64,000 nt of DNA from assembly GCA_009840625.1 (NCBI GenBank), contig VXNJ01000001.1:62001-126000 (forward strand), written 5' to 3'. The DNA is from Chloroflexota bacterium (lineage in GTDB: Bacteria; Chloroflexota; UBA11872; VXNJ01). The notes beneath the pieces were generated by a model, which saw only the letters and a list, made by a program, of their open reading frames with translations, had not been told where the DNA came from and did not search any database. Positions 22,200 to 43,851 of this stretch are shown here, piece by piece. The position numbers and the translations under genes were made by a program. How positions within the stretch are numbered: position 1 is the stretch's first letter; the number at the start of each line of letters is the position of its first letter.

Positions 22200-22305
22200 G
22201 CGGTTCCTGTAATCCGTCAATTGCTCGTTGATACCTCGCGCCACGGTCCAGAACCAATTTAGAAAAACCTACGTCCCCGAGTGGAATTTCAACGTCCCGG
22301 GCAGA

Positions 22306-22875
22306 TCAATCCTTAAATTTGTTTTTCAACCAATCGAGCGCGTGTTGCTGGTCGGCGACCGTGGCGGTGCGCAATATGGTCATCATCCTGATGCGGGAGG
22401 GAGGCTCCTGGGCAACGTTCTTGGCGCCCTGATTGCAAACGGTGCAGAGCGCACGAAGGTTGCCTGCCGTGTCATCCCCTCCTTGGCTCTTTGCGACGAT
22501 GTGCCCGACATGCAGAACTGTTCTGCGCCCGTTCACGGGGTGAGGTTCACCGGCGCCGGCACCGCACATCCGGCAAGTGTTGCCGTTTCTGATCAGGACT
22601 TCTGCACGCACTCGCCCGCTGATACTGCGCTCGAATTTCAGGTCGCCTTTTGGAGGCGGCGCCTCGGCAAGCCTGTATTGCCCGGGCTTGAGATCTTCAG
22701 CGTCGAGATGAGATTCGATCCGCCAACCTTCCTCGTCCCTGAGCTCCCGCAATCTCCGGCCGTATTGGACCTGGTTTCCGCTGGCGTCCCTGACTTGCTC
22801 CGTCGTAACAATCTCACCGACTCGCTGGCTGAGGAACGCCCTGATTCCTTTTTTGCCGGTTAATCTTTCAGGCAC
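22306..22875 (-). CDS. HNH endonuclease (putative restriction partner of the adjacent methylase)
   Basis: A 189-residue protein from GTG 22875, overlapping the methylase 3' end by 16 bases; GAAGG lies about ten bases upstream. Residues 1-75 look like a winged-helix region (RVGEIVTTEQVRDASG, RRLRELRDEEGW). The C-terminal half is an HNH nuclease with CRMCGAGAGE near 104, VLHVGHIVAKSQGGDD near 124 (His pair), NLRALCTVCNQGAKN near 144. The zinc-type Cys pairs are intact. Coupled to a cytosine methylase and a nearby Vsr, it is most simply the restriction enzyme of a type II system; the recognition site is unknown. Confidence 0.8.
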   Translation of the reverse strand: MPERLTGKKGIRAFLSQRVGEIVTTEQVRDASGNQVQYGRRLRELRDEEGWRIESHLDAEDLKPGQYRLAEAPPPKGDLKFERSISGRVRAEVLIRNGNTCRMCGAGAGEPHPVNGRRTVLHVGHIVAKSQGGDDTAGNLRALCTVCNQGAKNVAQEPPSRIRMMTILRTATVADQQHALDWLKNKFKD

Positions 22876-23783: not shown

Positions 23784-24247
23784 GCCGGGGACTCAATGAT
23801 TGGCGGGTGGACATTTCCCTCGACAGTGGCTGATTCCACAGTCAAACAGGACAAACGGTCATTCATACAACCAGAATACAACCCTTATCGGTTTACTGGA
23901 TGATTTTGCGGGTACCGGTGCGGGCCTGGCAAGGGCATTCGAGCGCCACCGGAGGTTCCACAGGCCCGCTGCCGCGGTTGTTGGCTACCCGAATGTGGCA
24001 CGCCAATTCGAATCGGTGAATATCCAGATTGAGGTTGCATTTCGCCTGATTGTTCAAGCCATTTGGTCGATCGAAGGCGCCCTTATTGCCCAAGCTGGTT
24101 TGCGCCAGATTGGCAGCAGCGCTTTCAGTGACCCCTCGGTTGCTGCAGCGCCATTCCATTTTCGTTGACGGATTGGAAGCGGTAACGAATACGAGGCAAT
24201 CGGGCCGATGCGCTTCGCCGAAACTTCCCGGCGGTGACAAGCCGTCC
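23784..24247. other. Intergenic stretch between helicase stop and methylase start
   Basis: No supported gene. A minus-strand frame crossing 23893-24247 has somewhat protein-like residues but no motif and would overlap the helicase 3' end; not called. The methylase promoter should lie near 23790-23850. Confidence 0.4.
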
Positions 24248-26968
24248 TCAGGCGGACCGAAACCGGCAAACGGCGCGCATGTCGCACGTCCCGCAGGCGC
24301 GCCCAGAAGGGGTCGGCGTGAAATCGGCGCTTCGAAACCGTTCAATCGCTTTGAGCACGCGCTCTTCGGCAGCCTCGATTGCCAATTGATCGGTTTGCAC
24401 GGAGAGGCGATCCCCCAAGTCAAGGTCATGTACGTATGCTCCTCGAACGTCAAGCCCTTCACGCCGGCCGGCGCTGGCGTAGATCTGGAGCTGGAGATCG
24501 TAATCGTCACCTCGGCGGAGCGATGTCTTGTAGTCGACTAGCGCGAGGGCTTGAGTTTGGCCCTCTTCTCGATCAAGAATCACATCCGCTCGCCCGGCCA
24601 CCGTTGCGCCGTCCAAATGCAATTCGAATGGACGCTCAACTTCCCACAACCTGTCGAGGTCTTCAGAGTACGCCTCCAAGTAACGATTAACCAGGCGCCG
24701 AGCGGATGCCTTGAGCTGTTTGTGGGCCGGTTTGCTTGCGTACGGCAGGAACATCGCTTCTTCAAATATTCGATCTAGCTCCTCGTGCGAAGGCGGGGAC
24801 CCGGATTCTTGATGGTGCTCGGCAACACGCCGCAATGCGTGGTGCACAGCGGTACCGTAACCGAGTTCTGGGGCGATCCGCGGCTGAAATCCGAGACCGT
24901 GGCGAAGCCGAAACGCATAGGGGCAGCGCAAGTAATTGGCGAGCTCAGAAAAGGAAAGGTTGACGCGCGCCAGTTCGCCGGTAGCTTCACGCGCACTCGG
25001 AGGCGGCGGTAATTCGGGGCGATCGGGTCGGGGTTCTCCTCCTAGCCCGGCGAGAAACGGCGAGGACCCGGAGCGGGCCGTATTCACGCGTTCGTGGGCG
25101 GAAAGGGACAACCAATCGCGGGCCCTCGTAACTGCGACGTAGAAAAGTCTCCGCTCATCGTCCATCGACCCCTCGTACCTGGCCCGGTCGAAAAGGTTTG
25201 GTGCGACGAACCAATTCCCTGCGCGACCCATTCTTGAGGGAGGGAACCGCTTCGCGGTCAGCGACGGCACAAATACGATAGGCCACTCACGCCCCTTTGC
25301 GCCGTGCACAGTGGTAAGGGTGACCGCATCGACAGCCAAGTCTTCTTCTCCCTCAAATCCTTCGTAGGCACCGTGCGCGTAGTTTTGAACGAAGGTCGCC
25401 AGCCTGAAGTAGAAAAAGGACCCCCTGTCTTGCCCGCCGATTTGCTCCCCAGGAACAGCTGGATCTGGCCGGGACCGGCGCTGGACGCTTTCGAAATCGG
25501 CCAGGATGCGGGAACAACGCGCGAGGCACCCCAGCCGCGCGACGTTTTCCGGTTCGTCCGGATCCCAGTCAAGCACACCGCAATGTTCCAGAAGGCGGTA
25601 AAAGTCCCCGACTAAGTCGGCCGGATGCGTCGGCGACTCGGCTTCTTCCTGCCAGTTCTCAAGCAACTCACGCAATTCCTGCCGTTGCCCGCTGCCTAGG
25701 CCATATTCGATTTCGTGCCGGTCCAGCAGATCGTCGATTTCGACGCTTAGGCGCTGGCCGTATTGTTCATCGCTCCATTCAATGCCCGCCAAAAAAGCCA
25801 CCGAACGGCCAAATAGCCGGGCAAGAGGCTGTTGAAACAACCCCTCCGCAGCCCCTGTCGTCACGGGTATGCGTTCAAACGCCCGCAGCAAAGCCGGATA
25901 GGCGACTTTGCCGCGGACGAGCACGGCAATGTCGCTATAGCGCCACCCCTGGTCGCGGAGATTGCGGATAGCTTCGGCAATCGTTTCCGATTCGCCCTGT
26001 TCGGTTGGTGCGACCCAGACGGTGTGCTCCGGTTCGGCCGGCTCTCGGTCGGGCTGCATTTCCTTCGGCAACCGGTTTGGAATCTGCGACGAGATCCCGT
26101 TTGCGAGGCTGATTATCCCTGGCCGGCTGCGCCGGTTGACAACGATTGGGTATTGCTTCGCGTCATAGCGTTGTTTGAATTCAAGGATGTTGTTTACGTC
26201 GGCTCCGCGCCACTGATAGATCGATTGATCGTCATCGCCAACCACGCAGAGCTCTACCGGCCCGCTAGCAAGCAATTCAATAAGGCGTTCTTGGGCCGGA
26301 TTGATGTCTTGGTATTCGTCGACCACCAGGTGCCGTAGCGACGAGTGGATTGTTCCCAGAACGGCACCGGATTCGAGGGCGCGAACCGCATGCTCTATCT
26401 GCTGGCCGTAAGTAAGCAATCGGCGCAGGTTCAATTCGTTGTAGTAGCGCCGGGTAATCTCCCCGAATGCCCCTTCGAGTTGATCGACCGCAATCAGCTC
26501 GTTCTCGACGACGGCGATATTCGCTCTGAAGTCACGGATTGCTGCGAACAACGGCCTGTCAAGCTCTCCCAGCTTGATGCGGCTTGACTCGATGGAGAGG
26601 AATGCCGAGAGGCCGTGCTCATCAAGTACGTCGAAAGTTTCATATCCGGGGACCTGCGACTGAAGAAGCCTGAAGCAATATGAGTGAATCGTGCCGATAA
26701 AGCAGTCGTTCATGTGATCGAGAAAGCCTCGGCCGAGGCGGTTCGCGACGCGGTCTTCGACCCGAGTCTTCAACTCATCAGCCGCAGCTTCGTTAAATGT
26801 GAATGAGACGATTTGCCCAGGGAGGACACCGTCTGCGAGGAGGTCTGCAATTCGCTGCGATACAACTTCGGTTTTGCCCGAACCAGCGGACGCAATGATT
26901 TGGAGAGGCCCGCCACGGTGTCTGACGGCATCCAAAGAGGCGCCGTCCAAGGTTGGCGGAACCGTCAT
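24248..26968 (-). CDS. UvrD/PcrA-type helicase with C-terminal RecB/Cas4-like Fe-S nuclease domain
   Basis: A 906-residue protein from GTG 26968. SF1 motifs: Ia Walker A IIASAGSGKTEV near 24, SFTFNEAAADELKTR near 55, II VVDEYQDINPAQE near 216, III CVVGDDDQSIYQWRGAD near 238, V TLTTVHGAKGREWPIVFVP near 560, VI RRLFYVAVTRARDWL near 615. The C-terminal 260 residues carry a RecB-type nuclease with AGRADVILD near 790, ALVDYKTS near 811, and four Cys (one in RCPYAFR near 682 and three in CGTCDMRAVC at the end) that fit an iron-sulphur staple as in AddB and Cas4. No AddB partner is adjacent. It may process DNA ends in repair or defence. Confidence 0.85.
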   Translation of the reverse strand: MTVPPTLDGASLDAVRHRGGPLQIIASAGSGKTEVVSQRIADLLADGVLPGQIVSFTFNEAAADELKTRVEDRVANRLGRGFLDHMNDCFIGTIHSYCFRLLQSQVPGYETFDVLDEHGLSAFLSIESSRIKLGELDRPLFAAIRDFRANIAVVENELIAVDQLEGAFGEITRRYYNELNLRRLLTYGQQIEHAVRALESGAVLGTIHSSLRHLVVDEYQDINPAQERLIELLASGPVELCVVGDDDQSIYQWRGADVNNILEFKQRYDAKQYPIVVNRRSRPGIISLANGISSQIPNRLPKEMQPDREPAEPEHTVWVAPTEQGESETIAEAIRNLRDQGWRYSDIAVLVRGKVAYPALLRAFERIPVTTGAAEGLFQQPLARLFGRSVAFLAGIEWSDEQYGQRLSVEIDDLLDRHEIEYGLGSGQRQELRELLENWQEEAESPTHPADLVGDFYRLLEHCGVLDWDPDEPENVARLGCLARCSRILADFESVQRRSRPDPAVPGEQIGGQDRGSFFYFRLATFVQNYAHGAYEGFEGEEDLAVDAVTLTTVHGAKGREWPIVFVPSLTAKRFPPSRMGRAGNWFVAPNLFDRARYEGSMDDERRLFYVAVTRARDWLSLSAHERVNTARSGSSPFLAGLGGEPRPDRPELPPPPSAREATGELARVNLSFSELANYLRCPYAFRLRHGLGFQPRIAPELGYGTAVHHALRRVAEHHQESGSPPSHEELDRIFEEAMFLPYASKPAHKQLKASARRLVNRYLEAYSEDLDRLWEVERPFELHLDGATVAGRADVILDREEGQTQALALVDYKTSLRRGDDYDLQLQIYASAGRREGLDVRGAYVHDLDLGDRLSVQTDQLAIEAAEERVLKAIERFRSADFTPTPSGRACGTCDMRAVCRFRSA

Positions 26969-27368
26969 ACAACCTCCCGCAAGGTGCTTCGCAATCTAGA
27001 TTCGATTGTTTGATTGCCAAAGGATTATGCGGAGAGGCATTCAGCAATCTAGTCAAATACGGATTCCCAATGGGGAGGCGTGCGGAAACGCACCCGCGCA
27101 AAGGATTTCCGTCACCCCTTTGGATTCAGCAATATTCGAACCAGGGGATCTGGAATCCGCCTAGGCATGTTCACAATCACACCGTTCTTGCGCGTTTCAA
27201 GTTGCCTGCGACCGATTGGCGCACTAGCTGAACGCCGCAATGAAGCGAATCGCGTCCTAGATGCGGCAGGTCGAAGCCTGCGAAATCGGGTCAATGGCGG
27301 CGAATACAAATGGCCGGTGCCGGATTCGCCATTGAATTGGAATCAAACCGTTGTGGTTTGGACCGCTT
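26969..27368. other. Intergenic stretch upstream of the helicase
   Basis: Lies between the Dam-type methylase stop and the helicase start. No gene supported. A motif of about ten bases (CAATCTAG) recurs near 26992 and 27047; too short to interpret. Confidence 0.4.
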
Positions 27369-28304
27369 TCAAATCGCGTAAGTCAAAAGTAGGCGCTCGC
27401 GAACGAGTTCCTCATTCAGGGAGTGGCCCTTCATTTGAAACCTTTTGAGCATGGATCTGCCCGTATCGAGATAAACCTCGCGTTCGAACAATCCGTCCGG
27501 CAGGTTCAGATGGCAAACGAACTCGCCGGAGCGCTTGGATCCGTCGATGCTCAAGGCAACTCGCGCGCCTCGGTTCTTGCAACCGGCAATCGCCTCGAAC
27601 AGTCGTTCCAGATCGAACGATTGCGAACCGTACAGGATCGATTGGCTGTACGAGTACGGCGGGTCGCAATAGACAAGGTCTCCACGCTGGGCGAGATCCA
27701 TTGCCTCTTCGAACGGCCGAGTTGCGAAGGTGACACCGCGAGTCCTCGAAAGCCAGTCATCGACTCTTTCGTCGAATGAGTCCGGCGGAATCGGATTGTG
27801 AACGCCGCAAGGCGTCGACATGTGCCCGTCGCGTTTCCTGAACCGCACGATGCCGCCGTAACAAGACCTGGAAAGAAAAAGCAAGTCGGCGCCATTAGGT
27901 TCCCGATTGAAAGACGATTTGATCCGCTCGTATTCGGACTTTTTCTCCCCCGAGGCCACAGCTTCCCAACGAGTCCGATACCAGGCTTTCAGGGTGTTGG
28001 GGCGAGATTTGAGAGTCTTCCAAATTTGGATCAACGGCTCGAACGCATCCGTGGCGATCGCCTGATCCGGGGACAGATGCCCTAACACCGCTCCGCTTCC
28101 AAGAAAAGGCTCGAAATATGTGCCGAATTCCTCTGGAAAGTGCGAAATGATCTCCGGGGCCGAGCGGTTCTTGCTTCCAACCCACTTCAGCAAGGGTTTG
28201 TATCGCGGCCGCCCAGTTCTTGCAGGCGCCAATTCCCCAGTGAATCCTAGTTGCGTCGAACTGTCAATTGACTTTGCTCGCATCCCCATATTCCATTTTG
28301 GCAT
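27369..28304 (-). CDS. D12-class N6-adenine DNA methyltransferase (Dam type)
   Basis: A 311-residue protein taken from ATG 28304; ATGs at 28289 and 28283 are alternatives. Motif X PLLKWVGSKNRSAPEI near 34, motif I YFEPFLGSGAVLGHL near 57, and motif IV GDLVYCDPPYSY near 210 (DPPY) mark the alpha-class Dam/DpnM family. It probably protects an A-containing site from the nuclease at 28573-29421. It diverges from the small helix-turn-helix gene with only 29 bases between starts, a layout typical of controller-protein R-M systems, although the spacing leaves little room for two promoters. Confidence 0.9.
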   Translation of the reverse strand: MPKWNMGMRAKSIDSSTQLGFTGELAPARTGRPRYKPLLKWVGSKNRSAPEIISHFPEEFGTYFEPFLGSGAVLGHLSPDQAIATDAFEPLIQIWKTLKSRPNTLKAWYRTRWEAVASGEKKSEYERIKSSFNREPNGADLLFLSRSCYGGIVRFRKRDGHMSTPCGVHNPIPPDSFDERVDDWLSRTRGVTFATRPFEEAMDLAQRGDLVYCDPPYSYSQSILYGSQSFDLERLFEAIAGCKNRGARVALSIDGSKRSGEFVCHLNLPDGLFEREVYLDTGRSMLKRFQMKGHSLNEELVRERLLLTYAI

Positions 28305-28333
28305 ATTGTGAAAGCCGCTTGTAGCATCGCCGC

Positions 28334-28573
28334 ATGTCGGGCGAGGACTTTCAATTCGAACGCGATGCGCTCCGGGATTTGCTCCGACAAACAAGGAAAG
28401 AAGCGGGGCTGCGGCAAATCGACGTTGCCCGCCGCTTAGGGCAAACGCAGTCGTTCGTGAGCAAGTACGAATCCGGTGAACGACGACTCGACTTGATCGA
28501 GTTGAGAGCAATTTGCAGCGCGTTGGGCATTCCGTTGTCGGATTTCGTCGCCCGATTCGAAAAGTCCACTTAG
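28334..28573 (+). CDS. XRE-type regulator, putative R-M controller (C) protein
   Basis: A 79-residue protein from ATG 28334. Nearly all of it is a Cro/C1-type helix-turn-helix: LRDLLRQTRKEAGLRQIDVARRLGQTQSFVSKYESGERR, then LRAICSALGIPLSDFV. Size and fold match C proteins, which bind operators upstream of their own gene and delay nuclease synthesis when an R-M module enters a new host. The stop overlaps the nuclease start (TAGTG), so C and R are translationally linked. No clear C-box palindrome could be identified in the 29-base gap. Confidence 0.8.
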   Translation: MSGEDFQFERDALRDLLRQTRKEAGLRQIDVARRLGQTQSFVSKYESGERRLDLIELRAICSALGIPLSDFVARFEKST

Positions 28574-29421
28574 TGTTGCCCGAAACCAAGTTCTTGGATT
28601 TGCCGAGCCCGTTTTGGGCCACTGTTCGACTGGTCAGCGAGACTGCCGGTTATTCGATGAAGGGTGCCGATAGAGTAAAGGCTCCGAGCGCCCAAGAAAT
28701 TTGCACGGCTATCTCCAAGCGCGGGTTTAATCCCCTGCGAAAGGCGAATGAGGCCTTAGGGCCAGCCCAGCTTGACGAGCTACTGGGCGAGTACCTCGCT
28801 TTTCGAGCTCACACGCTTAATGAATACGTCAGGCCTCGATTGATGGACGTGTACCGGGCGGCAACGGTTTTTGCCGAATTGCAAGACAGTCTCGAACCCA
28901 CTTGCCCAATCCCGATGAATAAACAGAAGGGCGACAAAAAGGCACCGGCTTACTTCACTGGAATTGTCAACATGCTCGTCGAAGCGCACGGCGCGGGAAT
29001 CAAATGCGACTACGACCCCCAAAGATTGATAACCGCCTCTCAGGCCGGCGATCTGGTTTTCACGTCCGCGAGAAGATTGGACGGAGCGTTCGGCGGAGAC
29101 AAGAATCCGATCGCAGTCTGGGAGGTCAAAGAGCAGTACTACACGACCACGTTCGGAAGTCGAGTCGCGGCAGGTGTGTACGAAACGCTATTGGACGGCA
29201 TGGAATTCGCCGCATTGCGAGATTCGCATGGAATCCAGATAAAGCACTACTTCATGCTCGACGCGTACGACACTTGGTGGGGAAAGGGCCGTTCGTACTT
29301 GTGCCGGATCGTCGATATGCTGCATATGGGATATGTGGACGAAGCTTTATTCGGTTACGAAGTGGTAGAGCGGCTTCCGCAAATAGTCCAAGGGTGGGTG
29401 AACTGCGACCGCGTCCAATGA
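28573..29421 (+). CDS. Putative type II restriction endonuclease of the Dam-type module
   Basis: A 282-residue protein from GTG 28573, overlapping the regulator stop by one base. The N-terminal half is helical with no motif. The C-terminal half has TASQAGDLVFTSARR near 155 and NPIAVWEVKEQYYTTTFG near 180, a good D...E-x-K nuclease core, followed by GVYETLLDGMEFAAL. Position after a C-like regulator and opposite a Dam-type methylase makes a restriction role likely. I do not recognise the specificity. The frame is intact. Confidence 0.72.
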   Translation: MLPETKFLDLPSPFWATVRLVSETAGYSMKGADRVKAPSAQEICTAISKRGFNPLRKANEALGPAQLDELLGEYLAFRAHTLNEYVRPRLMDVYRAATVFAELQDSLEPTCPIPMNKQKGDKKAPAYFTGIVNMLVEAHGAGIKCDYDPQRLITASQAGDLVFTSARRLDGAFGGDKNPIAVWEVKEQYYTTTFGSRVAAGVYETLLDGMEFAALRDSHGIQIKHYFMLDAYDTWWGKGRSYLCRIVDMLHMGYVDEALFGYEVVERLPQIVQGWVNCDRVQ

Positions 29422-30135: not shown

Positions 30136-30645
30136 GTGGATCCTAGCGCGGGGGCCATGCCGCAATCCGACCGGCGGATCGGGCGCGATCACCTTACGAT
30201 CCGCGAGCGCAGCAAGTTGATGAGCAGAATCCGCTCAAAGGACACCAAGCCCGAGTTGTTGGTTCGGCGGCTCTTGCACGGGATGGGGTATCGATACCGC
30301 CTGCACGCGAAGGAACTACCGGGCCGCCCGGACCTCGTGTTCCAGTCCCGCCGAAAGGTCGTATTTGTGCACGGATGCTTCTGGCACCGGCACGAGGGTT
30401 GTAAGGCGAATCGCCTACCAAAATCGCGGCGGGAATTCTGGCGAAGCAAACTCGAAGGCAACGCGCGGCGCGATGACCGGAACGTGGCGGCCCTGGTGGC
30501 GCTCGGGTGGCGCGTGCATATTGTTTGGGAGTGCGAAACGTCAAATTTGGACTGCGTCGCCGGGACAATCAAGCGTTTCCTCGGCCCCACGCGCATGCGA
30601 TCGTCACACCCGCACGTGAAAACACAACGCCCCGACGCCAACTAG
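30136..30645 (+). CDS. vsr: Vsr-type very short patch repair endonuclease (second copy)
   Basis: A 169-residue protein from GTG 30136, or 162 residues from ATG 30157. The core matches Vsr: RERSKLMSRIRSKDTKPE near 25, RLHAKELPGRPDLVF near 55 with the catalytic Asp, KVVFVHGCFWHRHEGC near 72, and WRVHIVWECET near 130. It differs clearly from the first copy, so it is not a recent duplication. It precedes a second cytosine methylase by 197 bases and probably repairs deamination at that enzyme's site. Confidence 0.9.
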   Translation: MDPSAGAMPQSDRRIGRDHLTIRERSKLMSRIRSKDTKPELLVRRLLHGMGYRYRLHAKELPGRPDLVFQSRRKVVFVHGCFWHRHEGCKANRLPKSRREFWRSKLEGNARRDDRNVAALVALGWRVHIVWECETSNLDCVAGTIKRFLGPTRMRSSHPHVKTQRPDAN

Positions 30646-30842
30646 CTGAATAAACGAGGATCGAACCGCGGTCGACGGCACACCGACGAGACTCCCCGGC
30701 CGGAGCGAAGTTTGCGGTCACACAACCGGGGCGCGCCGCGCAAGCGTTGCACCCGGCCGCAAGTCCGCCAGCTGTCGCCTTCCCTTCCAACGCGACAATT
30801 GGACCATGCCGACCCTGCATCTAGCTGAGGGGGAAGCCGAGT

Positions 30843-31985
30843 TTGTCCAAGGGCCATGCACAGGAAACCCCTGACCGGGTTGAAGCGATCCCCGAAAGTA
30901 GATCGCTGATTGACTTGTTCGCGGGCGCCGGGGGGTTTTCGCTCGGATTCGCCCAAGCCGGGTTTTCGCCGGTGCTCGGGGTCGACGACGACCAGCGCGC
31001 GATTTCCGCCTACTCCGCGAACTTTCCGGGCGTCGCCACGATACTGGGAGACGTTGGCGAGTTGACCGGATCTGAGATGCTTGACTCCGCTGGCGTCGAC
31101 TCCTGCGGAGTCGTTGTCGGAGGCCCGCCGTGCGCGGCGTTCTCTATGGGCGGGTTCAGAAACGCCGACGATGATCGGTCCGAGCTAGTCTTCGAGTTCG
31201 GCCGGGTCGTTCGAGAGGTCGGACCAATGTATTTCGTGATGGAGAACGTGCCCGGAATCTTGGTGCCGCCCTTCGACGCGATCATTGAGAGATTCCGATC
31301 GGAAATGCGGACCGCCGGGTACCAAGTCACCGATCCTTGGGTGCTGGACGCTTCGGACTTCGGTGTTCCTCAGCGGAGGAGGAGGGTTTTCCTCGTGGGA
31401 GCGAAGGACGGAAGTGCACTTCCGGTGGAGCCCGCGGCCGGTCGCGAATCCAATCCCACGGTAAAGGACGCGATTGGGGATCTGGAGACACTTGAAGGCG
31501 AAACCCCTGGGCCCGATGGGGAGTTGACCCATTCGGCCGAGGTTGTGAGCGCCTACGTGGAGCAGCTCCGAAGGCTGTTTCCGGAGAACGGCGAGTCGCA
31601 GCATTCCGGCGTGCAAATGAAATTGACGGGGTGCGCGCGGGTGGAGCATTCCGAGGACGTCGCAAAGAGGTTCGAGTCGGTTTGTCCTGGCGAGGCCGAT
31701 CCGGTAAGCCGATTCCACAGACTCCACCCGGATCGGACATCCCCCACGATCCGAGCGGGCACGCTTCCGGCCCGCGGCAGCCACACCGCGCCGCGCCCGA
31801 TCCACTATCGGTTTCCCCGGTGCATCACGGTGCGCGAAGCCGCAAGACTCCAGTCCTTCCCTGACTGGTTTCTCCTCGATTCGACTAAGTGGCGGGGCTT
31901 CATGCAAGTGGGAAACGCCGTTCCGCCGCTGCTCGGTCAGGCGGTCGCCGACTCAATTGACAGGGCAATCTCGCAGGAAGCGTAG
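30843..31985 (+). CDS. C5-cytosine DNA methyltransferase (second copy)
   Basis: A 380-residue protein from TTG 30843. Motif I SLIDLFAGAGGFSLGFAQAG near 22, IV VVGGPPCAAFSMGGF with the catalytic Cys near 88, VI FVMENVPGIL near 124, VIII DFGVPQRRRRVFLVG near 165, then IX and X ITVREAARLQSFPDWF and QVGNAVPPLLGQAV near the C-terminus. It leads a tight same-strand set with the GHKL ATPase (8-base gap) and the putative methyltransferase (8-base gap). No intact nuclease follows in that set. Confidence 0.92.
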   Translation: MSKGHAQETPDRVEAIPESRSLIDLFAGAGGFSLGFAQAGFSPVLGVDDDQRAISAYSANFPGVATILGDVGELTGSEMLDSAGVDSCGVVVGGPPCAAFSMGGFRNADDDRSELVFEFGRVVREVGPMYFVMENVPGILVPPFDAIIERFRSEMRTAGYQVTDPWVLDASDFGVPQRRRRVFLVGAKDGSALPVEPAAGRESNPTVKDAIGDLETLEGETPGPDGELTHSAEVVSAYVEQLRRLFPENGESQHSGVQMKLTGCARVEHSEDVAKRFESVCPGEADPVSRFHRLHPDRTSPTIRAGTLPARGSHTAPRPIHYRFPRCITVREAARLQSFPDWFLLDSTKWRGFMQVGNAVPPLLGQAVADSIDRAISQEA

Positions 31986-31993
31986 GCGATTCC

Positions 31994-33328
31994 ATGGCCG
32001 AAACAATTGCAGCGAACGCGAGCGCCACGAGAGCTTTCTTCGTCGACATGTTGGTGCGAGACATCGGCGTCGACGGGGCAATCCTCGATCTCGTCGACAA
32101 CTCAATTGACGCTGCGGTCGCGCACTCGAGTCAACGGGAGGGCCTTGGTCTCTTCTGGGTCGAAGTGGTCTTCAATTCCGACTACTTCGAGATCCGTGAC
32201 AACTGCGGCGGCATCGATGTCGAAACGGCCCGGAATTACGCGTTTCGATTCGGCAGGGCGAGGGAATTCAACCCGAAGTCAAAGATCGGCGAATTCGGCA
32301 TTGGGATGAAGAGAGCCGTCTTCAGGCTCGGGCGGAAGTTCTTGGTCGAATCGTCCACAACAGACGCAAGTTTCAGCGTCGACGTCGACGTTGCCACATG
32401 GCGCGAACAGCGAGGGGAATGGACGTTTCCGATGGTCGTTTCGGATCCGCTGGGCGATTCGGGCACCCGGGTCAAAGTTACGGAACTAAACCAGGGTGTC
32501 GCTGAGCTACTCGACGGCGAGGAATATTCGAACCGAATGTTGCAGGAGATTGCTGAAGCGCACAGCGAAGCGCTGCGGCTTGGGATGCAATTGACCGTGA
32601 ACAAGATCCCGGCCGACGCGCGGTTGCACGAGGTGCTGAACGGCGCTGGAATTGCCCCAGAGAACCAGACTATCGAACTGGTCTCCGGGGACCACCCGGT
32701 GAAACTCCGCATAGTGGCCGGTATCGGGCCAGACAGGCGTTCAAGGTCCGAGTCCGGCTGGTACATATATTGCAACGGTCGATTGGTATTGAAAGCCGAC
32801 CGAACGCCCCTGACCGGATGGGGCACCGGAGGTACCGGCCAATCCGACGGCATACCCGCATGGCATCCCCAATACGCCCGATTCCGCGGTTTCGTGTTCT
32901 TCGAGTCCGAACACCCCGCCGCATTGCCGTGGACCACGACGAAGACTGAGATAGATGAGTTTTCCCCCGTCTATCAAAACGCGCTCGGAAGGATGCGCAC
33001 GGTGATTCGGAGATTTACCTCATTCACGAACGAACTTGACCAGGAACGCGAACGATATCAAGAGAGCGAAGGGGACGCCCCCCAAGTGATCCAAGAAGCG
33101 ATCGGCAAAGCCGAGCTCGTAGCGGTCAACGACTTGCCGGAAGGTGAATTCGCCGTTCCGGAGCGAGGCCGAATAAAGCGAACGCCGAGCGGCCCGAAAA
33201 TGACAAGAGTGCTATTCCACGCCCAAGCAGATCAAGTGGGCGAACTCAAGGCCGCGTTTGGCCTGACGACCAATCGGGCAGTCGGGGAACTGGCATTCGA
33301 GCGCCTGTATGAAGAAGAAATCGCCTAG
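31994..33328 (+). CDS. MORC/MutL-like GHKL ATPase of an R-M operon
   Basis: A 444-residue protein from ATG 31994. GHKL ATP-binding boxes are complete: N box GAILDLVDNSIDAAV near 30, G1 IRDNCGGID near 69, G2 KIGEFGIGMKRAVF near 96, and a GTRVKVTEL strand near 157. A conserved middle domain has a SGWYIYCNGRLVLKADRT segment near 253 and a Lys in WTTTKTEID near 315, comparable to the S5-domain Lys of MutL/MORC proteins. MutL-like ATPases linked to cytosine methylases and Vsr are an established class thought to be ancestral to eukaryotic MORC. It probably senses or clamps DNA for a restriction response; the exact action is unknown. Confidence 0.8.
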   Translation: MAETIAANASATRAFFVDMLVRDIGVDGAILDLVDNSIDAAVAHSSQREGLGLFWVEVVFNSDYFEIRDNCGGIDVETARNYAFRFGRAREFNPKSKIGEFGIGMKRAVFRLGRKFLVESSTTDASFSVDVDVATWREQRGEWTFPMVVSDPLGDSGTRVKVTELNQGVAELLDGEEYSNRMLQEIAEAHSEALRLGMQLTVNKIPADARLHEVLNGAGIAPENQTIELVSGDHPVKLRIVAGIGPDRRSRSESGWYIYCNGRLVLKADRTPLTGWGTGGTGQSDGIPAWHPQYARFRGFVFFESEHPAALPWTTTKTEIDEFSPVYQNALGRMRTVIRRFTSFTNELDQERERYQESEGDAPQVIQEAIGKAELVAVNDLPEGEFAVPERGRIKRTPSGPKMTRVLFHAQADQVGELKAAFGLTTNRAVGELAFERLYEEEIA

Positions 33329-33336
33329 GACCACCC

Positions 33337-34284
33337 ATGGCGACATTCCGGCCGAAGCTCGACTATGCAATCCGCCCCGCCAAAGCCACAGTTCGCAGAA
33401 TGGTCGCCGAAACCCTCGCGAAACTCGACCCGGCGGTGGCCGCCAACGAATGCCGCTATGTCGGAATGGGATCGATCTTTTTTCGGGATTTTCAGATCTT
33501 CCACCGGCGACTCGGGATGAACGACATGGTCACAATCGAGGGAAACAGGAACGCGGAGTCCCGAGTCAAATTCAATTTGCCGCTGGCCTGCATCGAATTG
33601 ATGATGGACTCGGCGGGAGCCGCACTTGCAAAGTTGCAGCTCGGTGCCCGCCCCCATGTGATATGGCTCGACTACGAAAGTCGCTTGAACCCTGGCGTTC
33701 TTTCCGATGTAGAGGAGGCGGCGAAGCGGAGTTGCGCGGGCAGCATTCTGCTGGTTTCGGTAAATGCCGAAAGGTTACTCGGCGATGAGCGCGAGAGTTG
33801 GCTAAGCGGATTCGGGGCCGAGGGGGAGCGGCCGCATCCACGCAACCCTCGATCCCGAAGAGAATACACGATGCTGTCCTACCGCTTGCTGGACGCCGCG
33901 ATCCAAAGCGCGATCCGGTTCCGAAACGCGGCGCTGCCCTCTGAAAGGCGAATCGAGTTCCGCCAACTGCTGCATTTGGTCCACGCCGACGGTGCCCAAA
34001 TGCTGACGGTGGGCGGTGCGCTGGCGGGGGAAAGGGAGTGCGCGAGTTGGCCTGAACACGAGATCAATACTCTCGAATTCACCCGATCAGGCAAGGATCC
34101 ATTCCATGTCAGAATTCCGCCGCTCACTCGTCGCGAAGCCCAGCACCTTTTGAGCCGCGTGCCCGATGTGGGCGGCGCGTTGAATAGGGCCGCGGCCGAG
34201 GCTGGCATCCCTAGGGCCGACGCGCGGCAATTCGCATCCATCTATCGATACGCGCCATTGTTTGTCGAAGCCGAAGATTGGTGA
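33337..34284 (+). CDS. R-M associated protein, putative (O-)methyltransferase-like
   Basis: A 315-residue protein from ATG 33337, eight bases after the ATPase. The N-terminal part has ECRYVGMGSIFFRDFQIFHR and LGMNDMVTIEGN at about 34-70, a pattern I associate with a family often labelled putative O-methyltransferase and found beside R-M ATPases; the Y-x-G-x-G-S stretch and the following strand ending in E could be a SAM-binding loop. Later segments (HVIWLDYES near 107, SILLVSVNAERL near 131) fit a Rossmann-like core. No nuclease motif seen. Its substrate is unknown; the link to this operon is solid, the chemistry is not. Confidence 0.5.
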   Translation: MATFRPKLDYAIRPAKATVRRMVAETLAKLDPAVAANECRYVGMGSIFFRDFQIFHRRLGMNDMVTIEGNRNAESRVKFNLPLACIELMMDSAGAALAKLQLGARPHVIWLDYESRLNPGVLSDVEEAAKRSCAGSILLVSVNAERLLGDERESWLSGFGAEGERPHPRNPRSRREYTMLSYRLLDAAIQSAIRFRNAALPSERRIEFRQLLHLVHADGAQMLTVGGALAGERECASWPEHEINTLEFTRSGKDPFHVRIPPLTRREAQHLLSRVPDVGGALNRAAAEAGIPRADARQFASIYRYAPLFVEAEDW

Positions 34285-36742: not shown

Positions 36743-39127
36743 TTAACCGAGGGTGCTAACTGCGGGCCAGTGTTTCTTCTGGTATGCAAGCAAATCAGAT
36801 CCCGTTAGAACCCGCGTTGAGTTGTTGATTCGCGCATAAAAAACCTCACCGAGTTCACCCTTACCTCTTGCAAACACCGGGTGCGCGCTTTTGCGTACAT
36901 CTATACGAGCGACTGTCCGGCCGTCGATGGTGCAGAACAGGATTGGCGTTTCCGTGGCTGCAATTGCGCCCAACGCATTTTCGATGGCTGTCGTTAACCA
37001 AAGTTCCCAGCCGTCGCGGTCATTCCCTTTGACGTGTCGATAGTCGGATTCGATACCGACTGCATCGCCTCCGTCATTGATGCCCACCAATACCGTCCCG
37101 CCGTTGGTATTCATGAATGCGGCGATCGACTTGATCACGGCCCGCGTTATTTCGTCATCTTTCGCATCAGTGAAAAAGTTGTGTCTTGCCGTTGACTTGA
37201 ATTCCACAACTGCAGATTCGCCAGCACCGAGTAATGATTGCACCCCTCCGCTTACGGACTCGTTCGGTTCAATGAATGGACTTTCGTCGCGGTCGGGCCG
37301 CCTGTTGACTGGTTTTCCCATAGCTCTTTCTGCATGCTTAAGCAGGCTCTCGAATCGCTGATTGAAAAACTGTACGAAGTCATCGTGTCGCGTCGCGGCA
37401 GGATCAATGTCGTGCGAACGCAAGATGCTGTCCAGCTCGTGGGATTCAATTGCCGCATTCGACTCGATGCGCGAAAGGTAGATGCTTGGCGCACTGCCGC
37501 CAATTCGGCGATTGGTACTGGCATCGAGTGCAGTCTTGTTGACAATGCAATTGGCTATTCCGGGCGGTACGCGATTGTCGGAGTCGCCGGTTGCTCGCGC
37601 TCCTTGCGGTGAGTGGTTGTTGCACCATGCCCGCGGGAATATGTGATGAATGTCGATGGCGTGCTCAGAGTACGTGAGAGCGTCAATCCGTTTGCCAGTC
37701 CGAAAGTCTTTGCCTCCTTCTCTCATTTGCAGCGCGTACAAGCCTTTGTAGGCAGCGCTATTGCGCGTTCGGAGGGTTAGTAGCCGATCTGCCTGGAATT
37801 GAGCGGACTGCACTGTGCGCGGAGACGGCCGGTTGATTGGGTCCTCGATCCAAGCGACGCAATCTTCCAGGTCGTTGGCGAACCTAGTCTCCGTTGTGCC
37901 ACTGTACATCTCGCCAAGTACTCCGCACCAGTACCATTGCCCCAGGCGCTGTTGCGCCCCAAATGACTCCGCTCGATCTTGCAGCCACCCGTAGATCGCC
38001 CCCAGAGGGACTAGCTGTGTGGCATATGGAATATCCCGGTATCTGAAGATGCTGTGAGCGTGAAAGAAAGGCACCGTCCGAATTAGCCCTCTTTCCGCAC
38101 AATTTGCCCACCGGCGATAACTTGCAAGTGGCAAACGCAACACGTCGCGACGTTTGCAGGATACTGCGGGTGCCTTGTCATCTGTAGGTTTGTCTTGCAT
38201 GTGTTGCGTGCGCCGCTCGAAGGTCGCCAATAACGCGACGATCTGCAGGAATGCAGGTGCATTAATCCCTTTCAGGAGCTCGTGTTGTTTGAGCCGCGCA
38301 CTTCGCTCTTCCCAATCCTTGCGCAACTCAAAGTCGCCGGCCGCGTAGGTCGCCGTGAGCAATTCAAATACGGTAAGCGTGACGCCCCCGGTGTTTACTT
38401 TCTCGAATACTTGACAAACTGCTTCCTTCGGCGTCGATTTGATTAGCTCGATCGTCGGCACCTGGTACTGTACGAACGGGTTAATCAATGCATCCTGAAA
38501 TCGCTTCCACTTATTGAGGCGCCCTTCCATGCCACCTGGACCGAACTGCAAGTAGGCCATTTGCCAATCAACCGTTTCGCTTGAATCCAAAACGATGCCC
38601 AACGGAAACATCTCTTCCGCAATTTCCAATTCGCGAGAACTTAAATCCAAGTCAACCCTGCGACCAAAATCGCTCCGAAGAATCCGCCCCTCGGGGACAC
38701 TCAATATCCCTTCTTCTTCACGGTCTGCATTAGGGTCGATACAAACATCAATCTTTGCGTAGTAATGTCTCCGCAGGTCATGGCCACGACTGTCCCGTGT
38801 ATTAACAGGCGAGTTCGACTTCAACGCCTGAAACAATGAAGTGAGTCTTTGCTGGCCATCCAATAGCAATGTTTCAGGGATCCGCTTCGCTGGATCCCTC
38901 ACGCCTTCAAGTGCGCGCGCTTTGAAATTGACGTCTGGATTTCCGGCTTCCAGCGTCATGACCGCACCGATCGGGTATGAGAGTGAAATCGAAACGAGAA
39001 GGCTGCGAATGTGGTCGTCATCCCAAATCCAACTGCGTTGAAAATCCGGCAGTTGTAATTCGCCAGCCGCTGCTTGGTCGAGCAATTGCGCAAGCGGCAA
39101 CTCATCGCTACTGAATTTTTTTTCCAA
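36743..39127 (-). CDS. DUF262 - HNH (DUF1524-like) - AlbA_2/Schlafen-type fusion protein
   Basis: A 794-residue protein from TTG 39127, with GGAGAAG three bases upstream. Residues 1-250 are DUF262 (GmrS/ParB-like): LQLPDFQRSWIWDDDHIRSL near 22, TLLLDGQQRLTSLFQAL near 86, FEKVNTGGVTLTVFELL near 242. Residues about 475-560 hold an HNH module: AIDIHHIFPRAWC near 488 and IANCIVNKTALDASTNRRIG near 520. Residues 630-790 are an AlbA_2 putative DNA-binding domain: AVVEFKSTARHN near 634 and MNTNGGTVLVGINDGGD near 675. DUF262 plus DUF1524/HNH is the GmrSD architecture, which cuts modified DNA; the added AlbA_2 part is unusual. It diverges from the GHKL operon at 39619. Confidence 0.82.
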   Translation of the reverse strand: MEKKFSSDELPLAQLLDQAAAGELQLPDFQRSWIWDDDHIRSLLVSISLSYPIGAVMTLEAGNPDVNFKARALEGVRDPAKRIPETLLLDGQQRLTSLFQALKSNSPVNTRDSRGHDLRRHYYAKIDVCIDPNADREEEGILSVPEGRILRSDFGRRVDLDLSSRELEIAEEMFPLGIVLDSSETVDWQMAYLQFGPGGMEGRLNKWKRFQDALINPFVQYQVPTIELIKSTPKEAVCQVFEKVNTGGVTLTVFELLTATYAAGDFELRKDWEERSARLKQHELLKGINAPAFLQIVALLATFERRTQHMQDKPTDDKAPAVSCKRRDVLRLPLASYRRWANCAERGLIRTVPFFHAHSIFRYRDIPYATQLVPLGAIYGWLQDRAESFGAQQRLGQWYWCGVLGEMYSGTTETRFANDLEDCVAWIEDPINRPSPRTVQSAQFQADRLLTLRTRNSAAYKGLYALQMREGGKDFRTGKRIDALTYSEHAIDIHHIFPRAWCNNHSPQGARATGDSDNRVPPGIANCIVNKTALDASTNRRIGGSAPSIYLSRIESNAAIESHELDSILRSHDIDPAATRHDDFVQFFNQRFESLLKHAERAMGKPVNRRPDRDESPFIEPNESVSGGVQSLLGAGESAVVEFKSTARHNFFTDAKDDEITRAVIKSIAAFMNTNGGTVLVGINDGGDAVGIESDYRHVKGNDRDGWELWLTTAIENALGAIAATETPILFCTIDGRTVARIDVRKSAHPVFARGKGELGEVFYARINNSTRVLTGSDLLAYQKKHWPAVSTLG

Positions 39128-39618: not shown

Positions 39619-41589
39619 TTGCACGCAGACCATGAATTCTCGAATTCGCCGCGCTGGCGGTTTCGACGGATGTTGCCATCGGAGATAAACCAAGATCCGA
39701 TCCAGGGAGAATTTTTTACCTCCTCTTCCGATCTGTCAGAGAGGCTAGTTCGGGAATCGATCCAGAATTCATTGGACGCTCAGCACCAACAAGAGCAAGT
39801 CCACGTGTGCTTTACCTTTAGCGGCCAAGAAAACGCGCTTTCACCAAGCGAAGCGGCGCCTTATCTCCGCGGTCTTGCACCCCACATTCAAGTGGATCCG
39901 GATGCGGATGCATCTGAATTGACCGCTATCGCGGCGGCGCGCGACCTTGTAACCGGGCCGATGCCTTGGTTGTCAGTAGAAGACTTCGGCACGACTGGCC
40001 TCACTGGCAACATTCGGGCCAATGGTTCAAACGAAAGAGGAAATCATTTCTGGGGGTTTTTTAGGAGCATTGGTATTTCCCCAAAAGGCGAGGACGACGG
40101 TGGCTCGTGGGGCTTAGGCAAATGGGTTTTTCCGGATGCATCGTCGATCAATGCATATCTTGGTCTCACTAAACGAGTAGGTGAGAACGAATCCTATTTG
40201 ATGGGTATGGCGGTATTGCGTACACATCATTTGGACGGGAATAAACATCCGCCGTACGGGCAATTTGCAACGGAAACTAACGAATCTGACGACGCGTGGT
40301 TACCGTTGCCGATAGTTGCACCTGGGGATTCAGAATTCAATGCGCGGGCCGTTGTGGATTTCGGTTTAGCAAGGTCTGAAGAACCAGGATTGTCAGTAAT
40401 CGTGCCCTTTCCAAAAGAGGAGCTTTCACCGGGGGCAATTGCTCGAGCAGCCATCGTAAATTTCTTTTTGCCAATAGTACGTGGGGACCTTTGCGTCGAG
40501 ATCCGTTCTCCAAGTGAAGGAAATTTCACCATTAACGCCGAAACGATTTCGGCCGAGGCCCTGAAAATGCCGGCACTCGAATCCTCGGACGCGCATGATG
40601 AAGAATCTGTGGCCTCGATTTCTGGGGTAATTCGGTTAGCGAAGTGGGCAATTTCCCTCGAAGCATCTGATTTCAATCAGCTTCACGTGCCGACTCGCGC
40701 AAATGATGCACTGGACATTCTTGACGTGGAACCCTTACGCGATCGGTACGAACGCGGAGAGCGACTCGCATTTGAATTCGGAATTCATGTACGTCCGAGG
40801 AGCTCGGGCACACAAATCAAGTCTGCCTTTCACGTTTTCCTCGAGAGAGATGATGGTCTTGGTAGTGGCCACGACTATTTTGTTCGGGGCCATCTCAATA
40901 TTCCGCGCATGAATCACATACGACGCTTTAAATCGCGTGTTTTGTTGACGGTGGCGGGAAAATCTGATCTTGCTCACATGCTCAGGGACTCCGAGGGGCC
41001 AGCTCATGTGTCCTGGAATCCACATGAACAACGACTCAAAGATCATTGGATTGGTGGATATAACCGTGTTCAGGAAGTGCGACGCGCCGCGTTGTTTCTA
41101 CTGAATCGATTTGCTGAACGTCCTGATGAAAAGCAATATGACGCCCTAGCTGATCTTTTTCCGGCCGAACCTGAAAACATTGGTCGAAATCCACCAAATA
41201 GGCGTAGGGGTGTCCAACCGCCGCGCCGACAGGTTTATCAGACTCAACCGCAGGCCCTTGTCGCGACACGTGTCGGAAACTCTTTTTCGCTTTCCGGTCC
41301 ACCAGACGCCCAGTTAGTTGATTCTGAATGGGAACTTCAATTTGCATATGACGTCGTGAGGGGGAATGCATTCAAGCTGTTCGACCAGGGCGTTCGAAAT
41401 GGAGTGCCAGACTTCGCAATAGCGCCAGGTGATGTTGAAGTGAATGCGAGATCTGCGTCAATCAAACAAATTGCCGAAAACAAGTTGCAATTCCAAATAA
41501 CTGGCGACGACTTCCGCATTGACATTTCGGGCTTTGATCATCGCGATTTGATCCTCGATGCGAGACCGATTGAGATCGTGAGCCCTTAG
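39619..41589 (+). CDS. Large GHKL-fold ATPase, first gene of an uncharacterised operon
   Basis: A 656-residue protein from TTG 39619. GHKL boxes: N box ERLVRESIQNSLDAQ near 41-55, G1 WLSVEDFGTTGLTG near 116-129, then a lid with GNHFWGFFRSIGIS and G2 GGSWGLGKWVF near 155-166. The remaining 480 residues match none of MutL, Hsp90, gyrase or histidine kinases that I can see; they include FEFGIHVRPRSSGTQIKSAF near 385 and a basic linker NPPNRRRGVQPPRRQ near 525, then a beta-rich tail. The stop overlaps the next start (TAGTG). Probable ATP-dependent switch of a defence-type system, from the neighbourhood; not recognised as part of a named system. Confidence 0.72.
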   Translation: MHADHEFSNSPRWRFRRMLPSEINQDPIQGEFFTSSSDLSERLVRESIQNSLDAQHQQEQVHVCFTFSGQENALSPSEAAPYLRGLAPHIQVDPDADASELTAIAAARDLVTGPMPWLSVEDFGTTGLTGNIRANGSNERGNHFWGFFRSIGISPKGEDDGGSWGLGKWVFPDASSINAYLGLTKRVGENESYLMGMAVLRTHHLDGNKHPPYGQFATETNESDDAWLPLPIVAPGDSEFNARAVVDFGLARSEEPGLSVIVPFPKEELSPGAIARAAIVNFFLPIVRGDLCVEIRSPSEGNFTINAETISAEALKMPALESSDAHDEESVASISGVIRLAKWAISLEASDFNQLHVPTRANDALDILDVEPLRDRYERGERLAFEFGIHVRPRSSGTQIKSAFHVFLERDDGLGSGHDYFVRGHLNIPRMNHIRRFKSRVLLTVAGKSDLAHMLRDSEGPAHVSWNPHEQRLKDHWIGGYNRVQEVRRAALFLLNRFAERPDEKQYDALADLFPAEPENIGRNPPNRRRGVQPPRRQVYQTQPQALVATRVGNSFSLSGPPDAQLVDSEWELQFAYDVVRGNAFKLFDQGVRNGVPDFAIAPGDVEVNARSASIKQIAENKLQFQITGDDFRIDISGFDHRDLILDARPIEIVSP

Positions 41590-42362
41590 TGAGGAGTCGG
41601 CTAAATAGCACCGGGCGGAGGCGAATAACGCGCAATCACGCGCAAGTTGGCATCAGGTTGGCTCCCGAGGGCGAGGCGCCGGTAGTTGATGTCACGCTTG
41701 AGTTGTCATCCTATGATTTCCCAAAAAACGCCCTGGTGCGTGTTGAGGCATGGCGCAGCAATTCAGTTCAGCGCTGGGAATACGGCACCGTTGGGGCAAT
41801 AGAGTCGCCGATTGGGGAAGCCAGCAAATTGACCGATGTTCCTACTTCTGCTCAATTCCGAGTTTTAGTGGTCGCCGGAGACGATTCGGGCCTGTTGTTG
41901 GGTCACGCGCCCAGCATTCGCCCAGTGCTTCCAAGACGATCACTGTTGCCCGTTAGGGAGACCAATGAACTGGGGGACGAGGTTTGGAGAGTCGACTTTG
42001 GCGATGGATTGGATAGCCCTGAGTTGCTCGTCAATTCATCTGTAGTAGGGATAAGTGAGATTGTCCGGAGTGATGCGACGTTCCGTTCGCTTGTGATGCC
42101 TGAAATCTTGCGGAAGGTATTGCACCACATAGTTGTAGTTGGATGCCATGACCCCCATGATGATGAAGGTCCATGGGGCGGTTGGTTTGCGATCGCCCGC
42201 ACGCACCTGCCGAATGAAGACCCGCCTACATTGCGATTCGATGAAACCTCCGAAGAAGAGATTTCATCTGCAATTCAATGGATTGATCGCGTCGTTGCTG
42301 CATTTGCGGATTCCCCGCTGGACGCAGTTGATGTGTACAACGCGACGATTTCGGGTCGCTGA
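41589..42362 (+). CDS. Unrecognised second protein of the GHKL operon
   Basis: A 257-residue protein from GTG 41589, overlapping the ATPase stop by one base. Residues 20-110 look beta-rich (VVDVTLELSSYDFPKNALVR, FRVLVVAGDDSGLLLGHA). Then VWRVDFGDGLDSPELLVNSS near 135, a helical stretch, and an acidic C-terminal part. No catalytic motif was identified and no family recognised. Two bases separate its stop from the next ATG, so all three genes are surely co-expressed. It could be a scaffold or target-binding subunit for the ATPase; that is inference from the order only. Confidence 0.6.
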   Translation: MRSRLNSTGRRRITRNHAQVGIRLAPEGEAPVVDVTLELSSYDFPKNALVRVEAWRSNSVQRWEYGTVGAIESPIGEASKLTDVPTSAQFRVLVVAGDDSGLLLGHAPSIRPVLPRRSLLPVRETNELGDEVWRVDFGDGLDSPELLVNSSVVGISEIVRSDATFRSLVMPEILRKVLHHIVVVGCHDPHDDEGPWGGWFAIARTHLPNEDPPTLRFDETSEEEISSAIQWIDRVVAAFADSPLDAVDVYNATISGR

Positions 42363-42364
42363 GA

Positions 42365-43450
42365 ATGAAAAACGTAGACAAGATCCAGGCGCTATCTACG
42401 CTGCGAGAACTCCGCGACGAGTTAGGGCAAGAAAATGCGCCTAGGCGGGTCAATTTACGTGCTCATATTCCCCAAAATTCACCTGCGTGGAAGGCGTTCA
42501 TTAAGGTTGCTGGAGTTCCAGGACGCAAAGTCCGTCGCAACACCGTAATCACGCGGGTAAACGCAACGATCGATTCACTTACAACTGAGCTTCTCGATGG
42601 TGCCTCGGAAGATGGACCGCAAGTTTCGAGAAGAGTACGTGTATCGGATTTCGGCCGTTCGAGAAACCTGGCCAATACCTCAGGGGTCAACCTGGAATTG
42701 CGTCGCTTGACCCCCGCTGGAATCACGCTTGCTCGTGAATTCTTGTCTGACTTGCGGGATAAGCCATCAGGTGCTGTCACCCCGCCGCAAGAGCTATTGA
42801 TCGACGAGGAATTCGCGGCTCGATTTGCCGGAGACATACGCTTAGAAATGCGCGGATTCAATTCGCGGCGTGAAGCCGCCGCGTATCTTTCCCCCATCCT
42901 TCAGCCGGTTTCACACCTAATTGCTGATCATTCCGGTGTTTGGTCATGGATCGGCATGCTTTATTTCCCCGAAACAGTTGCACGCGAAGACGGCGCCGTT
43001 AAGCTGTCGCCACTTGATGAGACGTTCGTAGTAAATCGCGAAGATTCTTCAACCCGCTCGTATCAATTGCGGTATCGGCATTATCTCTGGGGCGCTTGGA
43101 GGCTCTATTTGCAACACGGCGAGCAAGCAGATTTCTTGCTTGACAGGCCATTGACTCAGTGGGGAGATATCGAGGAACGCTGTTTTGGTTCCACCCGAAT
43201 CTTCAATTCGATCGGCGTCGTTGATCTGATATTGCGCTTGTACACACATGGCTCGCAACAAAAACGAGGGTTTTCTCGGAATCGTGCCGGCCTTCGCCAC
43301 TTGATCAGGGTGTTGGCGCAATTGGAACGCACGTTCGATGTCTACGGCATGGATTCGGACGCATTGCTTCGCATTTTGCCAGCGGAATTTCGGCAATGGG
43401 AAACCCAACAGACTCGCAGCCCTGCGAGATCTGCGGCACCTGGGTTTTGA
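42365..43450 (+). CDS. Third protein of the GHKL operon (DUF6339-like?)
   Basis: A 361-residue protein from ATG 42365. The N-terminal third is basic (LRAHIPQNSPAWKAF, GRKVRRNTVITRVN). The C-terminal two thirds contain SHLIADHSGVWSWIGMLYFP near 180, SYQLRYRHYLWGAWRLYLQH near 220, and RCFGSTRIFNSIGVVDLILR near 260, ending with a helical tail. From memory this resembles DUF6339, a family of unknown function; unverified. No nuclease signature is evident. Its last 18 codons overlap a further frame at 43396. Confidence 0.6.
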   Translation: MKNVDKIQALSTLRELRDELGQENAPRRVNLRAHIPQNSPAWKAFIKVAGVPGRKVRRNTVITRVNATIDSLTTELLDGASEDGPQVSRRVRVSDFGRSRNLANTSGVNLELRRLTPAGITLAREFLSDLRDKPSGAVTPPQELLIDEEFAARFAGDIRLEMRGFNSRREAAAYLSPILQPVSHLIADHSGVWSWIGMLYFPETVAREDGAVKLSPLDETFVVNREDSSTRSYQLRYRHYLWGAWRLYLQHGEQADFLLDRPLTQWGDIEERCFGSTRIFNSIGVVDLILRLYTHGSQQKRGFSRNRAGLRHLIRVLAQLERTFDVYGMDSDALLRILPAEFRQWETQQTRSPARSAAPGF

Positions 43451-43851
43451 AGTGCAATCCACTTTTTTGGCCCGATTGCGAATTAGCAAGCGCCGCAGCT
43501 CTTAAACCTGATTGCCAGAACGAGTGCCCACTTTCGAAGCGGGTCGGCCTCTCCCAGGTGGAGGTACTTGGGAGAATCGGGCCGTTCATTTGCAACATTC
43601 GCATTGAGGACCTTCGCAATTCGCAGAATCGGCTGACAAAGCTTCCGCAACATGTTCGAAACAAATGCGATGCGAACTACCTGGCAGCACCTTTCGAAGC
43701 CATTCTGTTGGCGATTCCCGCGAGGCGCCGTAGATTCGCGGCTCCATATTTCTCGGCGACTAATCTCATTCGTTGGATTCGCCGGTTGGAGCTAGCGCGA
43801 GGACGAGACATATTGGTAATTATGTCTAGCGTAAGTCCTCGACCCAAGTGA
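43396..43851 (+). CDS. Possible fourth gene of the GHKL operon, Cys-containing
   Basis: A 151-residue frame from ATG 43396, overlapping the previous gene by 55 bases. The N-terminal 45 residues hold a run of Cys (CEICGTWVLKCNP, then three more by about 50) that could bind zinc. The rest has helical, Arg-rich segments (YLAAPFEAILLAIPARRRRF, LIRWIRRLELARG). Codon choice looks moderately natural. The 3' end overlaps the convergent phosphatase gene by 26 bases. It may be genuine or chance; the long overlap argues for caution. Confidence 0.4.
   Translation: MGNPTDSQPCEICGTWVLKCNPLFWPDCELASAAALKPDCQNECPLSKRVGLSQVEVLGRIGPFICNIRIEDLRNSQNRLTKLPQHVRNKCDANYLAAPFEAILLAIPARRRRFAAPYFSATNLIRWIRRLELARGRDILVIMSSVSPRPK

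Follow-up and report, generated by a model that had tools for sequence, protein, structure and literature searches.

Downstream of a restriction island, the 64-kb stretch of DNA analysed here (the window) carries three closely packed genes on the forward strand. Do these genes form a conserved unit, and is that unit a multi-gene defence system matching no named one, as the original prediction had proposed? The three-gene operon, A-B-C, is a genuine unit, with the following features:

39619-41589, + strand: gene A, GHKL ATPase of 656 aa (open reading frame, PDC-M33A match, motifs)
39730-40551, + strand: GHKL part of A that matches PDC-M33A, residues 38-311 (profile match, motifs)
40981-41016, + strand: family signature LxDSExPAHxxW in the C-terminal half of A (alignment of 49 homologues)
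41589-42362, + strand: gene B, 257 aa (open reading frame, AlphaFold2 model, homologues directly after A)
42365-43450, + strand: gene C, 361 aa, probably a distant DUF6339 relative (open reading frame, model, hhalign)
42386-42613, + strand: movable module of about 65 aa at the N end of C (comparison of C relatives)
42671-43423, + strand: conserved core of C, residues 103-353 (profile match)

The genes and their products

The frames of 656, 257 and 361 residues described in the original prediction are present at the positions it gave, and so is their tight coupling. Gene A starts with TTG, 5 nt after GGGAG. Its stop codon (TAG, 41587-41589) shares one base with the GTG start of gene B at 41589 (TAGTG), and gene C starts 2 nt past the stop of gene B. 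Across loci, the commonest A/B junction is a 4-base overlap (32 loci). The relatively A/T-rich composition was also confirmed: gene A has 51% GC and a GC3 of 0.48, and the operon as a whole 51-55% GC and a GC3 of about 0.5, versus a GC3 of 0.845 in the aldo/keto reductase-like gene that flanks it downstream. A fourth, Cys-containing frame (43396-43851), previously counted as a further partner, was rejected. It overlaps gene C, has zero homologues in any fetched locus and gave a sub-threshold RecR_ZnF match alone; it is probably no real gene. Rfam and tRNA scans of the 64-kb window returned no matches.

Searches of A, B and C against Pfam and NCBIfam gave no significant match, nor did sequence-profile searches against the PDB, where Top6B was among the nearest, non-significant, matches of A. 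The PADLOC model PDC-M33A matched A (E 4e-18) over residues 38-311, i.e., in the N-terminal half only, and it also matched all 49 aligned A homologues. The clear GHKL boxes previously claimed for A are all there, including the catalytic Glu: the N box (RESIQNSLDA), G1 (DFGTTGLTG) and G2 (GGSWGLGK). The residues R45, E46, Q49, N50 and D53 of the N box, D122, T125, G127, L128 and G130 of G1, and G162, G165 and G167 of G2 are invariant in 49 of the 49 homologues. A glutamate at this N-box position marks the hydrolysing members of the GHKL class, such as GyrB, MutL, Hsp90 and Top6B. The C-terminal half of A is family-specific, and within its signature E459 and H463 are invariant in the same alignment.

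The AlphaFold2 model of B (mean pLDDT 92) consists of a predicted Ig-like beta sandwich (around residues 15-150) and a helical domain (around 155-255), for which Foldseek retrieved only generic Ig/FN3-type matches with low TM-scores. The model of C (mean pLDDT 89) is mostly helical, and Foldseek found no match to it in the PDB or among viral models. Four residues of C are invariant (G119, W193, Q319, D325) and H239 is nearly so; invariant polar residues are thus few. Only close relatives have the module of about 65 aa, which sits at either the N or the C end of their C protein, and the C genes of the window's branch are often duplicated or extended. No nuclease motif or fold was found in A, B or C with Pfam and PDB profiles, or with Foldseek in the case of B and C.

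The Pfam search did not match C to PF19866 (DUF6339). The comparison of C with the DUF6339 alignment by hhalign gave a colinear match (E 3e-4, probability 40%), and C occupies the operon position held in other loci by annotated DUF6339 genes. For these two reasons C is probably a distant relative of DUF6339, in line with the likeness that had been suspected. In one locus (L028, 5721-7400, - strand) the DUF6339 subunit is fused to a PP-loop domain with a score on SspD and a weak one on PAPS reductase, and the C of another (L032, 3340-4986, + strand) is similar in length to this fused protein.

Recurrence across phyla and relation to PDC-M33

We used tblastn to find A in plasmids of Rhizobium, Paenarthrobacter, Arthrobacter and two haloarchaea. 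In each plasmid locus A is followed by two genes that correspond in size and order to B and C; three of these loci have C annotated as DUF6339. A scan of GTDB contigs, with one genome per species, returned 178 stretches encoding an A relative, and 78 loci were retained from these. These are from Chloroflexota, Acidobacteriota, Gemmatimonadota, Pseudomonadota, Actinomycetota, Planctomycetota, Bacteroidota, Nitrospirota, Nitrospinota, Verrucomicrobiota, Myxococcota and others. Altogether, about 90 loci from more than 12 phyla of bacteria and archaea have the genes in the order A-B-C. Most loci are chromosomal, and some are on actinobacterial and haloarchaeal plasmids. Scans of viral contigs revealed no A-B-C relative.

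The distinct loci number 89, of which 81 belong to the window's branch. The ORF search identified B in 77 of these 81, and C as well in 73; a six-frame search recovered C near a contig end in four loci. In two more loci B is cut off at the contig end. The only exceptions, with neither B nor C, are two loci (L090, where A itself is short, and L109). The homologues are therefore not scattered without each other, and the claim of a conserved unit, in which two unrecognised partners accompany a GHKL ATPase, holds across unrelated phyla. Since A, B and C recur together in other genomes, a chance grouping is excluded.

Presence within the phylum is patchy. In three separate searches of 400 genomes we found A in 12, B in nine and C in nine. 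The genomes with B and those with C are the same nine, and the genes are adjacent to A; the three further genomes with A carry a sister branch. DUF6339 was matched in four of the 400 genomes, and all five matches adjoin an A gene. One apparent orphan DUF6339 gene (genome G023) was rejected as such, because an A gene lies about 1 kb upstream. The same genome encodes three separate operons of the A-B-C type, from different branches (L021, L030, L161), the third being followed by a Vsr-like ORF.

Pairwise distances in 72 loci were strongly correlated between A and B (0.92), A and C (0.92), and B and C (0.89), values reached in none of 2000 permutations. These correlations are partly due to shared ancestry, yet A-B-C is clearly inherited as a whole. 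The tree of A mixes phyla (27 label changes versus a minimum of 14), to which contamination of metagenome-assembled genomes (MAGs) may add, e.g., in L055 and L056. The A genes of these two loci are identical, and the MAGs they come from are labelled Omnitrophota and Deltaproteobacteria, which points to either recent transfer or bin contamination.

The original prediction held that the set matches no named system, which must be corrected, since PADLOC-DB already lists it as the candidate PDC-M33A/B/C. Proteins of the sister branch match PDC-M33A, B and C in operon order, which identifies A-B-C as the set that PADLOC lists as candidate M33. The window's operon shares the gene order and gene sizes of PDC-M33, its A matches PDC-M33A, and the DUF6339 protein that serves as C in M33-type operons is probably a distant relative of its own C. 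It differs in that A is matched over the N-terminal half only and in that the models for the partners miss B and C: PDC-M33B did not match B at E 1, and PDC-M33C did not match C. A profile comparison between the window's B and the sister-branch B gave E 0.006 and a probability of 6%, which does not establish a relation between them by sequence. Membership is thus seen in the A model and in the gene order, and not in the B and C models. Because the latter miss B and C, we class the operon as a divergent variant and not as a plain M33 member. By profile and tree it is placed in a divergent, larger branch of PDC-M33 that existing B and C models mostly miss; recognisable M33 members make up eight rows of the A tree, versus 81 for the other branch. 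PDCs are described as candidates without experimental validation (PMC10855318; PMC12988326). Our literature search retrieved no paper naming PDC-M33 or DUF6339 and no experimental description of the set.

Genomic neighbourhood and the link to C5-methylation

The restriction island placed by the original prediction next to the operon was found upstream of it. The island encodes two C5-type methyltransferases (MTases), a D12-type MTase, a second GHKL protein (HATPase_c_3), a PF20553 protein, a UvrD-PD-(D/E)XK protein, an RNase_T exonuclease and a GmrSD-AlbA protein. At 20675-28622 (- strand) there are the RNase_T exonuclease, a C5-type MTase without a match to the strict patterns of motifs I, IV and X, the UvrD-PD-(D/E)XK protein and the D12 adenine MTase. 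At 30136-34284 (+ strand) a Vsr-like ORF, a C5-MTase, the HATPase_c_3 GHKL protein and the PF20553 'putative O-methyltransferase' follow in tandem, which is a probable paraMORC-type restriction operon. At 36743-39127 (- strand) a protein of 794 aa joins a GmrSD N-terminal domain to a Schlafen/AlbA_2 domain; L048 and L069 encode relatives of this protein close to their A-B-C operons.

When we asked whether homologues lie beside defence genes, a single neighbour proved clearly enriched, a C5-cytosine methyltransferase, which Vsr usually accompanies. The general PADLOC content of the neighbours was not clearly above that of control stretches from the same genomes, in a comparison that left out the three largest neighbours and the two largest controls. 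C5-cytosine methylases (six of 134 neighbours) and Vsr (four of 134) were both absent from the top families of the 133 control genes. C5-MTases were near 26 of the 89 loci and Vsr near 20, versus none of 20 control stretches. A C5-MTase was within 10 kb of the operon in six of 20 genomes, which together have 33 C5-MTase genes (expected 0.23, P 4e-8); as three of the six belong to closely related Bacteroidota, about four are independent (P 6e-5). The adjacency is operon-like in L107, L087, L097, L110 and L111. In the window, 7.6 kb separate the operon from the nearest C5-MTase, and most of the operon's close relatives lack one in reach, which makes the association a trait of parts of the family and not of its core. 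Around 70% of the loci lack a C5-MTase in reach, and methylation is therefore not a required part of the system.

Strict patterns for motifs I, IV, VI, VIII and X matched 20 of the 27 neighbouring MTases, and the window's two failed some of them. Truncated profile matches had hinted at associated MTases lacking the SAM motif I. This was rejected, since motif I is intact; an insert that separates it from motif IV accounts for the truncation. C5-MTases of about 507-553 aa with FAGPGG in motif I are encoded near L081, L087, L095, L097, L102, L104, L110 and L111; with their large insert before motif IV and their presence in several phyla, they are a possible partner subfamily. The neighbouring MTases also score on DrmMII of DISARM. 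Plasmid copies of the operon adjoin restriction-modification (R-M) and Shedu genes. In four loci a PIN-domain gene is directly upstream of A (L097, 1298-1696, + strand; L087; L105; L111). A constant large helicase or nuclease partner was rejected because none recurs across loci: the large upstream genes that we looked up in the PDB were a UvrD-like helicase (L054), a BNR-repeat protein (L074) and two unmatched proteins (L102).

Proposed function and its alternatives

Several characterised systems resemble A-B-C in part. The GHKL N box of A, with its catalytic Glu, is like those of topoisomerase VI subunit B and MutL, whereas its C-terminal half is unrelated to theirs by sequence and the operon lacks a Top6A/Spo11-like partner. 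MORC and paraMORC proteins are GHKL ATPases in an R-M context, as is the window's HATPase_c_3 protein, which adjoins a C5-MTase. In contrast to these, A does not match HATPase_c_3, none of 95 A proteins has the MORC S5-domain motif GhXhhpXXRhl (PMC2292703), and no constant helicase accompanies the operon, as we found no recurrent large partner of the paraMORC Superfamily II helicase type across loci. VcSduA is a Shedu protein with a GHKL domain proposed to control the defence effector (PMC12137116). It shares with A a GHKL ATPase domain in a (candidate) defence setting, but has a fused PD-(D/E)XK nuclease, whereas we found none here and B and C are separate proteins.

We tentatively favour, as a serious possibility, that A-B-C is a three-subunit, ATP-driven defence complex of divergent PDC-M33 type, acting on phages or foreign DNA without a classical nuclease. 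It is the context that suggests defence: co-inheritance of the genes, the PDC-M33A match, the invariant ATPase motifs, the patchy presence (12 of 400 genomes), the phylum-mixed tree, the low GC within a restriction island, the R-M and Shedu neighbours on plasmids and the enrichment in C5-MTase and Vsr. Against it, the general PADLOC content of the neighbours is not clearly above controls and PDC-M33 is itself only a candidate. In such a complex, A, whose N box is likened to those of topoisomerase VI-B and MutL, would hydrolyse ATP and work as a clamp or switch that dimerises on ATP. B and C would be its obligate partners, with a probable role in recognising the target or in loading. The GHKL class and the neighbours suggest DNA as the target. 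The complex would block foreign DNA by ATP-driven engagement and would have no classical nuclease of its own; with modest confidence we favour engagement over cleavage because no nuclease was seen in A, B or C, an apparent absence that reflects searches finding none. In a minority of lineages the adjacent C5-cytosine methyltransferase may mark self DNA.

Alternatively, the operon could be the restriction half of an R-M system, the C5-MTase marking self and A-B-C cleaving unmarked DNA, with the nuclease unrecognised in B or C or borrowed. The C5-MTase and Vsr enrichment, the five loci with operon-like adjacency and the GHKL proteins that Iyer et al. (2008, PMC2292703) described in R-M systems speak for this, but most loci lack an MTase nearby, our searches found no nuclease motif or fold in A, B or C, and some MTase-bearing loci already have a restriction enzyme of their own, which makes the reading somewhat unlikely. 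Rather unlikely, too, is abortive infection, in which A would serve as sensor and switch, while C or B, set free or activated upon infection, would be the toxic effector, with a new fold, that kills or arrests the cell. The fold of C is without match in the PDB, and C differs between loci in size, copy number and fused parts (such as the PP-loop of L028), as effectors often do; yet it has few invariant polar residues and no recognised toxin motif. That A-B-C is not for defence at all, but is a module that mobile elements use for maintenance, transfer or chromosome organisation, would agree with the plasmid copies and the weak general defence enrichment. We consider this quite improbable, given that the scans of viral contigs found no copy, most loci are chromosomal, the link to C5-MTase and Vsr is specific and the window's copy sits in a restriction island.

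A more specific form of the favoured defence complex is speculative, and we think it doubtful as a whole: a GHKL clamp loaded by the Ig-like and DUF6339-like subunits might immobilise or silence foreign DNA without a nuclease, with 5-methylcytosine as the self mark in some lineages, as a prokaryotic counterpart of MORC-type entrapment.

The window's operon belongs to a divergent, larger branch of a genuine family that is widespread, co-inherited, already named as a candidate and uncharacterised. The PADLOC candidate PDC-M33 is the small visible part of this much larger, cross-phylum family, most of which the existing models for B and C do not cover; a single scan, with one genome per species, returned 178 stretches encoding an A relative. 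The high-confidence predicted fold of C without match in the PDB, the invariant residues available for mutation and the unexpected link to C5-methylation and Vsr make the mechanism of the family directly testable.
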